From assembly GCF_026712205.1 (NCBI RefSeq), contig NZ_JAPPUW010000001.1, forward strand, positions 310,001 to 374,000: DNA of 64,000 bases, given 5' to 3'. The position numbers and the translations under genes are program-made. Positions within the stretch are counted from its first letter, which is position 1; each line of letters opens with the position of its first letter. The notes under the pieces are model-generated. The model saw only the letters and a program-made list of their open reading frames with translations. It was not told the origin of the DNA and made no database searches. Source of the DNA: Pelomonas aquatica. Its GTDB lineage: Bacteria > Pseudomonadota > Gammaproteobacteria > Burkholderiales > Burkholderiaceae_C. Positions 1,467-4,243 of the stretch are shown piece by piece.

Positions 1467-2831
1467 ATGCTGTCTCGCCATGCCGACCCCATCGCCGCAA
1501 TCGCCACCGCTCCCGGGCGTGGGGCGGTCGGCATCGTGCGCGTGTCTTCACCGCAAGACCTGACACCGCTCATCTTAGCCGTCTGCGGGCGCGCGCTGCG
1601 GGCCCGCGAGGCGACCTATCTGCCGCTGCGCGACGCGGCCGGCACCGCCATCGACCAGGGCCTGGCCCTGCACTTCCCGGCGCCGCATTCCTACACCGGC
1701 GAGCATGTGCTGGAACTGCAGGCCCACGGCGGCGCCGTCGTGCTGCAGCTGCTGCTGGCGCGCGTCATCGAAGCAGGCGCCAAGGTCAGGCTGGCCGAGC
1801 CGGGCGAGTTCACGCAGCGCGCCTTCCTGAACGGCAAGCTCGACCTCGCCCAGGCCGAGGCCGTGGCCGACCTGATCGACGCGAGCACCGAGGCCGCGGC
1901 CCGCAGCGCCAGCCGCGCGCTGGGCGGGGCGCTGTCGAACGAGGTCGGCCTGCTGCGCGACCAGCTGATCCAGCTGCGCATGCTGGTCGAGGCGACGCTG
2001 GATTTTCCGGAGGAGGAGATCGACTTCCTCGAAAAGGCCGACGCCTTCGGCCGGCTCGACCGCCTGAGCGCGCAGCTGCAGGCCGTCCAGGCCCGCACGC
2101 GCCAGGGTGCGCTGCTGCGCGACGGGCTCAAGGTCGTGCTCGCCGGCCAGCCCAATGTCGGCAAGAGTTCGCTGCTCAATGCATTGGCCGGCGCCGAGCT
2201 GGCCATCGTCACGCCCATCCCGGGCACGACGCGCGACAAGGTCAGCCAGACCATCCAGATCGAGGGCGTGCCGCTGCACATCACCGACACGGCCGGCCTG
2301 CGCGACGCGACGGCCGACGAGGTCGAACGCATCGGCGTGTCGCGCTCCTGGGACGCCATCGCCGATGCCGACGTCGTGCTCTTCCTGCACGACCTCGGCC
2401 GCGTCGGCCAGCCCGACTACGAGGCCGAGGACGAGCGCATCCGCGCGCGACTCGCCGGCGTGGACGCGGCGCGCATCGTTCAGGTGTTCAACAAGACGGA
2501 CCTGGGCGCCGCGCCGGCAGGCGAGATCGCGCTGAGCCTGAAGACCGGCGACGGGCTGGAGGCGCTGCGCCGGCGTCTGCTCGCGACCGCCGGCTGGCAG
2601 GCCGTGCCCGAGGGTCTGTTCATCGCCCGCGAGCGCCATGTGCAGGCGCTGGCCCGCACGGCGGAGCATCTGGCCCTGGCCCGCGCCGTCGCCGAGCAGC
2701 GCGACGCCGCGCTGGATCTGCTGGCCGAGGAACTGCGCCTGGCCCACGACGCGCTGGGCGAGATCACCGGCGCGTTCTCGGCCGACGAACTGCTGGGCGT
2801 GATCTTCGGCAGTTTCTGCATCGGGAAGTAA
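1467..2831 (+). CDS. mnmE: tRNA uridine-5-carboxymethylaminomethyl modification GTPase MnmE
   Basis: 454 residues, the normal family length. The N-terminal folate-binding domain begins [21 protein letters not shown] domain inserted in the helical domain shows the P-loop GQPNVGKSS (about residues 227-235), the switch region PGTTRD, DTAG, and the NKTD guanine-specificity motif. The protein ends in the diagnostic FCIGK, whose cysteine is needed for activity. With MnmG it makes the cmnm5 modification of U34 in tRNAs. The ATG at 1467 was preferred over upstream in-frame starts because it gives the conserved N-terminus. mnmG is about 59 kb away in this window. A degenerate second copy of the gene's last codons lies at 4205-4243. 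Confidence 0.97.
2814..2831 (+). other. mnmE 3'-end att-type core (left copy)
   Basis: The last 18 bases of mnmE, TTCTGCATCGGGAAGTAA, correspond to the position used as attB in trmE by SGI1-type integrative elements. A related 18-mer in the same orientation lies at 4226-4243 and matches 14 of 18 positions. Calling the two copies attL and attR is an inference; no integrase gene is present between them. Confidence 0.45.
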
Positions 2832-2871
2832 TGGATGCAGCCCCGGCACCACCGCCAGCAGATGACCTCGC

Positions 2872-4026
2872 CTATGCCGGCACGGCGAAGGCCACGCGAT
2901 TCCTGCCGGTGGTCTTCGCTTCGTACAAGGCGAGGTCGGCCCGCTTGAGAACGGCACTCCAGTCGGTGTCCTCCGGAAGGATGCCGGCACAGCCCACGCT
3001 GATGGTGATGCGGATGGCGCCGGAATCCAAATTCAGGGGCGATGCTTCCACGGCATGACGGAGTCGTTCGGCCAGCATGCCGATATGCCCGCTCGGAACG
3101 AGTATCAGGAACTCTTCACCGCCGAGCCGGAAGCGGATGTCGTAGCCGCGCAGCTCGTCCGCGACGACGCGGGTGACATGGATCAAGGCCTGGTCACCGG
3201 TCGCATGACCGTAGGTGTCATTGATGGACTTGAACTTGTCGATGTCGAAGGTGATGAGGTGGAATCCGCTTCCCGTTCGTTTGGCGCGAGCAAATTCACG
3301 AAGAAGGACCGGCGCCAGCGAGCGCCGGTTGAACCAGCCCGTCATCGGGTCCACCTCGGCCGACTTGCGCAGCTCGGCCTCCTTCTTGCCCATGACCATC
3401 AAGGCGCAGGCCGTTGTACCGGGCAACACGAGCGTCAACAAGCCAAGCCGGCCGGCAAGCTGCACGAGATCGTTGCCGAGTACCTGTAGCGGGGTCTCGT
3501 GACCGGTTGTCAGACGCACGAGAAGAAACGCGTACAACACGAAGCTCGTCGTGAACGTGAGCTGCAGAAGCGCGGCAGGCGAGCGCCACATGAACCCAGG
3601 TGAACGCGCGATGAGAACGGCAGCTGCCAGGTCGACTGCGGTCAAGATACCCGCAATAACCGGCCATCGAACCGCGACGTCGGTCAGCAGGTTGGGCACG
3701 AAATGGGCGCCGAACACCAGCAGCCACAGCCATATTCCCGAACGTCTCAACGACGTCTGGCCGATGTGCTCGCGATAGCCCTGCAGCAGGGAAAAGTGTC
3801 CCAAGACGGCACCGGCGTTCGCGATCCCGATCAGCAGCTGCATGACGGGAAAAAACTTGAAGGCCGCGCCCGCGGTCACCACGCCATTACAAAAGAAGAA
3901 AAAACCCGCTGCAGCCCAGTCGAGCAGGCTTCGTTCCTGGCGGCTCACCAAATAGAGCAGCCCGAATGTGGCCGCCATCCATGCCGAACACACGCAGATG
4001 ACAACAAGCAGTGTCTGAGTTTGCAT
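2872..4026 (-). CDS. Membrane-anchored diguanylate cyclase (GGDEF domain)
   Basis: 384 residues. About 210 N-terminal residues form a multi-helix membrane sensor region (hydrophobic runs such as LLVVICVCSAWMAATFGLLY and AAGFFFFCNGVVTAGAAF). The C-terminal GGDEF domain has the active-site signature GGEEF at 302-306, which is a catalytically competent variant. An RxxD inhibitory site (RGYD, 293-296) sits exactly five residues before it, so feedback inhibition by c-di-GMP is expected. No EAL domain follows. Product: c-di-GMP from two GTP; the signal sensed is unknown. The gene is visibly less G+C-rich, with weaker codon bias, than both neighbours, and lies between two copies of the mnmE 3' end, pointing to acquisition by transfer. 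Confidence 0.9.
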   Translation of the reverse strand: MQTQTLLVVICVCSAWMAATFGLLYLVSRQERSLLDWAAAGFFFFCNGVVTAGAAFKFFPVMQLLIGIANAGAVLGHFSLLQGYREHIGQTSLRRSGIWLWLLVFGAHFVPNLLTDVAVRWPVIAGILTAVDLAAAVLIARSPGFMWRSPAALLQLTFTTSFVLYAFLLVRLTTGHETPLQVLGNDLVQLAGRLGLLTLVLPGTTACALMVMGKKEAELRKSAEVDPMTGWFNRRSLAPVLLREFARAKRTGSGFHLITFDIDKFKSINDTYGHATGDQALIHVTRVVADELRGYDIRFRLGGEEFLILVPSGHIGMLAERLRHAVEASPLNLDSGAIRITISVGCAGILPEDTDWSAVLKRADLALYEAKTTGRNRVAFAVPA

Positions 4027-4204
4027 TCTCTTGTTGGGGCCTCTCCGGCTTGCCCAAGCTCCTCCGATTCAGGACGTTAGCTGGTCGCAATCCAGTCGTC
4101 GCGCATGGGGGGCCGTCAATGCGCCCCTCGCACACGATCTTCTCTGGTCAAGCCTTCTTCCGCAATCCGGGGAAGGCGCCACGCCGATGCAGCCGCGACG
4201 GGAT

Positions 4205-4243
4205 GACGAGCTGCTGGGCGTGATCTTCAGCATCGGCAAATAG
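4205..4243 (+). repeat. Degenerate duplicate of the mnmE 3' end (candidate attR scar)
   Basis: The segment reads [16 protein letters not shown], matching the mnmE terminus [15 protein letters not shown] with nine bases lost, including the cysteine codon. At DNA level the 24 bases starting GACGA(G/A)CTGCTGGGC match mnmE with one difference. Nothing upstream of it resembles mnmE, so it is a terminal fragment, not a whole pseudogene. Such a fragment is what remains when an element integrates at the 3' end of mnmE and supplies a replacement terminus. Confidence 0.65.

Follow-up and report, generated by a model that had tools for sequence, protein, structure and literature searches.

The evidence supports an insertion of foreign DNA at the 3′ end of mnmE in Pelomonas aquatica, and the inserted DNA is probably what is left of an integrative element that targeted this gene. 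The insert lies within the stretch analyzed here (the window, 64,000 nucleotides of contig NZ_JAPPUW010000001.1). This reading is carried by a repeat of the mnmE terminus that exceeds chance and is unique among 20 genomes of the genus, by near-empty sites in relatives, by an orphan gene between the two copies of the repeat, and by integrase-bearing islands at the same gene end elsewhere in the family.

The repeated mnmE end and the gene between its copies

The target gene is intact. It was taken to start at 1467 and runs to 2831 on the plus strand, and it encodes the tRNA-modification GTPase MnmE (Pfam MnmE_helical, 1.2e-53; TrmE_N, 1.8e-34), with an amino acid identity of 91–95% to the 18 genus relatives that have a full-length match. 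G010, in which mnmE is divided between two contigs, falls outside this set. By alignment and pattern search, the last 48 bases of the gene (2784–2831, the proximal, working end) recur downstream on the same strand at 4205–4243 as a single copy minus 9 bases, with 34 of the 39 aligned bases identical. An earlier note on this DNA had described the copy as an imperfect repeat of the last 18 bases, preceded by a further 21 bases from the mnmE terminus. The note's count proved exact: 14 of 18 bases are identical between 2814–2831 and 4226–4243. The block at 4205–4225 copies 2784–2804. As the register of the 21-base block is offset by 9 bases, the two blocks form one 48-base copy minus 9 bases, with identities of 25/27 upstream and 9/12 downstream of the gap.

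Translated, the proximal end gives 15 residues and the distal copy 12; the 3 missing codons include those of the FC segment, whose loss the note had also pointed out. The FC segment is required for MnmE function. The lost bases amount to a single unit of a 9-base tandem repeat that is imperfect (7/9 matches in the relatives' sequence), and slippage there could have caused the deletion. The copy begins abruptly at 4205: the 30 bases just upstream match mnmE at 8 positions, and 4027–4204, the region upstream of the GGDEF gene, has no mnmE homology. The bases following the two stop codons are alike at 6 of 30 positions. A 12-base repeat pair at the inner ends of the insert was dismissed as chance, since 17 direct-repeat families occur within 1.9 kb.

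When the last 60 bases of mnmE were aligned locally to the 1900 bases that follow, the top score was 46. None of 2000 dinucleotide-preserving shuffles attained this score (maximum 32), nor did any of 1120 real 60-mers taken from the window and put through the identical test (maximum 40). In a similar search of the relatives, covering stretches of at most 16 kb each, the highest score was 39 (in G017, on the minus strand and about 13 kb away). Real DNA thus yields scores close to 40, but in no control was 46 among them. In the window's own genome (G000, a draft of 5.1 Mb in 56 contigs), a degenerate 24-base pattern for the terminus of mnmE had two matches; the 19 other genus genomes had one apiece, so that the note's refuting outcome, both copies in a relative devoid of the gene between them, was absent. 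Among 399 family genomes, 343 contained a match to this pattern and 4 contained two (table read by hand); the other three, G131, G151, and G332, come down to an unrelated frame, copies at contig edges, and two contigs of the same sequence. The exact degenerate pattern for the deleted distal end had no match elsewhere in the genome-contig collection.

The sole gene between the two copies is a diguanylate cyclase gene of 384 codons on the minus strand (2872–4026). Its product matches Pfam GGDEF (PF00990) over residues 223–377 (E = 4.1e-37) and TIGR00254 (E = 1.3e-42), and homologues in the PDB cover about residues 217–380. By eye, the N-terminal half is hydrophobic and the GGDEF domain is C-terminal, with a GGEEF motif, which we take to be the active-site motif, and upstream of it an RGYD motif, presumably that of the inhibitory site. 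The GGDEF domain with its intact active-site motif fits a diguanylate cyclase. If active, the protein would add a membrane-bound source of c-di-GMP, expressed from the gene's own upstream region. Between 2600 and 4700, a scan with a simple consensus returned no sigma-70-like promoter, and 5 terminator-like sites, which were given no weight, were counted against 1.5 in shuffles. As the note had stated, the gene is lower in G+C than its surroundings (61.5%, versus 70.7% for the window); among 1257 window positions of the same length, only some 0.5% have so low a value, and these presumably overlap the gene.

At the thresholds used, the gene is an orphan. Its N-terminal 223 residues have no relative elsewhere in 398 family genomes (E ≤ 1e-8), and among 369 genomes of the class the N-terminal half was found only in its own genome (E ≤ 1e-6). 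Within the 20 genus genomes there was a single other match, in G016, at 32% identity and on a different contig from mnmE. The gene is not syntenic, and the second outcome named as refuting, a syntenic and vertically inherited GGDEF gene, was likewise absent. A pattern scan of the genome-contig collection, which detects close relatives only, found no relative either. The idea that the insert has a mobile relative was rejected: phages gave no match, and of the 14 records that one search against plasmids returned, not one reached 80% coverage (five that were listed cover 6–10%); in a second, at least 8 records cover at least 80%, and among the matches listed the best places are all below 60% identity. 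A different GGDEF gene lies about 17 bases past mnmE, in the orientation of mnmE, in G011 of the same genus (L046:14351-15499), in the position that the window's own gene occupies. It was rejected as the same gene as that of the window, as the two lie on opposite strands and their similarity is confined to a C-terminal stretch of 200 with 38% identity.

The insertion site in the genus and islands in the family

By eye, the sequence shared with relatives restarts near 4484, which gives an inserted stretch of about 1.65 kb. The native flank, placed by synteny with its edge set by eye, spans 4484–4755 on the plus strand and consists of a leader (CTTATGCGTTCTTGATGCG) and a 59-aa ORF (4576–4755). 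Between the distal copy and this flank lies a second plus-strand ORF of 69 aa (4265–4474), which has no Pfam or NCBIfam match and no assigned function. The insertion at the mnmE 3′ end proposed in the note therefore stands, but the GGDEF gene is not the only inserted ORF. Because the 69-aa ORF separates the copy from the native flank, the distal copy sits inside the insert and off the synteny boundary. Relatives of the 69-aa ORF are patchy, being present in 15 of 289 family genomes (its own included) at 40–57% identity, and no mnmE terminus was found near them in 11 loci with flanks of about 1.5 kb. The ORF had no match at E ≤ 1e-3 in the stretches, several of them short, that follow mnmE in the 19 genus relatives.

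Gene order after mnmE in the genus runs through the 59-aa ORF (in part of the relatives), then SMP-30-like, thioesterase, galM, SDR, and DHDPS-like genes, most of these names being putative. In 6 of the 19 relatives (G001, G002, G004, G016, G017, and G019), the site is empty or nearly so and mnmE has a single end, a finding that the note had named as support. Four of the empty sites were read as sequence: G001, G004, and G016 have a leader like CTTATGCGTT within tens of bases of the stop codon, and in G002 the spacer between mnmE and the 59-aa ORF is shorter. Other DNA of 1.3–13 kb occupies the site in 11 of 19 (G003, G005–G009, G011–G013, G015, and G018), while the remaining two, G010 and G014, could not be judged. 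By eye, genes recur among the occupied sites of G003, G006, and G009, of G008 and G015, and of G013 and G018; a P-type-ATPase-like gene after mnmE is shared by the first three. Some of the differences between genus members at this site may come from loss or vertical change, not from islands. Only one of the 11 occupied sites, that of G007, has an integrase related to those described below, and it is also the only one with a recognizable distal core.

The 18-base mnmE terminus was matched in 387 of 398 family genomes and occurred twice in 14; the reversed pattern had 3 matches in total (both tables read by hand). In 6 of the 14 genomes with two matches, and thus in 6 of 398, the two copies are paired on the same contig and strand less than 25 kb apart. 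A related tyrosine integrase follows mnmE in four of these pairs, which are 5.7 kb (G177), 11.4 kb (G032), 14.2 kb (G076), and 23.8 kb (G150) in size; the pairs in G140 (1.8 kb) and G313 (6.1 kb) are without one. The integrases immediately 3′ of mnmE in G007, G032, G076, G150, and G177 share 43–76% mutual identity, and the three that were scanned (G007, G076, and G177) combine Arm-DNA-bind_3 and Phage_integrase domains. The note had called for a search for larger elements; at this gene end the family does have them, complete with integrase and with mnmE-end repeats on both sides. A related integrase also lies beside an mnmE end in four of five IMG/VR viral contigs (L096, L097, L098, and L099), and prophage-like elements seem to use the mnmE end too.

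The cargo of these islands is varied. In G007, of the same genus as the window, an island of about 10.7 kb lies immediately 3′ of mnmE (L042:540-11200), starting with the Arm-DNA-bind_3 integrase and carrying genes with ResIII and N6_N4_Mtase domains that resemble a type III restriction-modification system. From reading translations, the G076 island (L080) has type I restriction-modification-like genes and the G150 island (L081/L082) metal-efflux-like genes. G313 (L079) and G140 (L077), which belong to one genus, both have DUF4143 genes and, by eye, similar flanks at the right end; G313 has AAA, Fic, deaminase, and YgjP-like genes as well. The G140 insert looks like a reduced form of that in G313. 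Islands do land at the mnmE end in this family, then, and they seem to decay there.

Compared with these islands (G007, G032, G076, G150, G177, G140, and G313), the window's insert has in common the site, the family, and foreign cargo, and with G007 also the genus. It resembles the G140 insert in its small size and in having no related integrase. The repeats differ, however. In the seven islands compared, the repeat stops at the last 18 bases with no upstream extension, and the 30 bases upstream of the 18-base core are alike at 5–11 positions in the six pairs and G007. The distal flanks of the islands are unlike mnmE, while the window's copy is identical at 25 of 27 bases before the 9-base gap. 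In G313 the repeat continues for about 12 bases beyond the stop, and in G007 the distal core retains 11 of 18 bases, the remnant at 11186 keeping only TTCTGCATCGG. With neither a related integrase nor a distal repeat preceded by sequence unlike mnmE, the window's insert departs on both counts from the islands with an mnmE-adjacent integrase. None of the five mnmE-adjacent integrases had a match in the window's 16 kb past mnmE. A search of the 20 genus genomes with the G007 integrase at E ≤ 1e-60 returned only G007 itself, with none in G000.

Relative age of the two ends and routes of entry

Of the 39 aligned columns, 5 distinguish the two copies; between the ends of the 19 relatives, the mean is 3.73 differences (range 0–8). 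The copies thus appear to have diverged about as far as the mnmE ends of different species. At the five differing columns, the majority base of the 19 genus genomes is that of the distal copy in four and that of the proximal copy in one, and for this reason the chromosome's original mnmE end is probably the distal copy, which has ceased to belong to the gene. In line with this, the distal copy is nearer to the relatives' mnmE ends in 17 of 19 comparisons, with one tie and one reverse, although the relatives are not independent. The proximal, working end would then probably be a later newcomer allele. Block by block, the last 48 bases of mnmE are no more diverged from the relatives than the rest of the gene, and no mosaic step was visible along it in 48-base blocks; this comparison was made without G010, and the row for G001 is empty, as the gene was not recovered from its locus. 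Whole-gene identities for G017, G026, and G032, lowered by length differences, were left unused. Because no such step is seen within mnmE, only the five differing columns speak, and weakly, for a foreign origin of the proximal end.

An integrative element leaving such a scar would have inserted at the gene end as its relatives in the family do, displacing the original mnmE end, which would now be the copy at 4205–4243, and supplying the end that works today. Free of selection, the displaced end would have dropped one 9-base unit through slippage. The element would afterwards have lost its integrase and most of its cargo, leaving the GGDEF gene with an intact reading frame. As the 69-aa ORF lies beyond the distal copy, it may stem from another insertion that had struck this place before, which suggests accretion. 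By analogy with the family's islands, such an element is the likeliest agent of the insertion. Against an element stand the repeat, whose 48 bases are not the geometry left by the family's mnmE integrases, the genome's lack of a G007-type integrase at E ≤ 1e-60, and the position of the distal copy off the synteny boundary. The repeat would be explained either by a different recombinase, with its crossover some 48 bases ahead of the stop, or by incoming DNA that recombined by homology on one side and was joined illegitimately on the other. That an element recombined at that point and brought the last 15 codons and the stop of mnmE with it, in place of the 18-base exchange of SGI1 and the family's islands, or that repeated accretion kept old mnmE ends as markers of each insertion in turn, we consider doubtful.

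The length of the repeat and the missing integrase would also follow if no element had been involved. Linear DNA from another species, comprising an mnmE 3′ end and the GGDEF gene, could have entered through homologous recombination within mnmE at its left side and illegitimate joining at its right, about 48 bases before the old stop, with no need of an integrase. Such a route accounts for the abrupt start of the copy at 4205 and for differences between the copies that resemble those between mnmE ends across species. Against it, no genus genome examined has the window's GGDEF gene beside mnmE, the gene was not found in the 398 family genomes (E ≤ 1e-8), and no mosaic step is visible in mnmE. 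We regard this route as possible, if rather unlikely.

A local duplication of the mnmE end within this genome, followed or preceded by an independent arrival of the GGDEF gene in the interval, would require no special enzyme, and different DNA does occupy the interval in many relatives. Yet the five differences, with the extragenic copy nearer to the relatives, argue against such an origin, as do the unlike sequences after the two stops, and two events would be required at the same 48 bases. This makes a local duplication improbable. That the likeness arose by chance, or through a short coding motif that converged, is barely credible and was rejected. G+C-rich coding DNA does have many weak internal repeats, and 60-mers of the window attain a score of 40; the score of 46 was nevertheless unmatched in shuffles and real controls alike, the copy contains an in-register stop codon, and the mnmE-end pattern occurs just once in each of the other genus genomes. 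A leftover of an mnmE-targeting integrative element remains our preferred reading.

The mnmE end as an integration site

The earlier note had taken SGI1-type islands as its model. In Gammaproteobacteria, integrative mobilizable elements related to SGI1 reside in the 3′ end of trmE/thdF (mnmE), according to two papers (PMC2297512, PMC9035990). The repeats of SGI1 correspond to the 18 terminal bases of thdF/trmE, and the strands are exchanged upstream of position 9, as described in the first (PMC2297512). Sections of the second describe the far repeat of such elements as retaining the last 9 bases of trmE, the near repeat as having those of the element, and the backbone of SGI1 as comprising xis, rep, traN, sgaC, traG, mpsA, mpsB, and others (PMC9035990). 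The window has in common with SGI1 the target gene end and copies of the mnmE terminus on both sides. However, where the repeats of SGI1 span 18 bases, the copy in the window spans 48, as the 14/18 identity in the last 18 bases is joined by homology reaching 30 bases further upstream. SGI1 is tens of kilobases in size, compared with 1.4–1.65 kb for the window's insert. No SGI1 backbone gene was found in this insert, which holds the GGDEF gene and the 69-aa ORF without a family match. Likewise, no integrase lies next to the mnmE end of the window, the large ORF between the copies that matches a known family being the GGDEF gene. Given this anatomy (no integrase and no SGI1 backbone), we rejected membership of the SGI1 type.

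That islands use the mnmE 3′ end is already known in Gammaproteobacteria, where part of one paper describes the trmE 3′ end as a hotspot (PMC9035990). A literature search combining an mnmE integration site, tyrosine recombinases, and Burkholderiales returned titles on dusA only, which is no proof that the lineage studied here is undescribed. In the family of the window, too, this gene end takes islands, and their integrases are mutually related. The insert itself most likely represents ordinary genome history with one odd detail, its unusually long repeat. These 48 bases pose a small puzzle as to how the insert entered, and the window illustrates that the remainder after such an insertion can be a single signalling gene.
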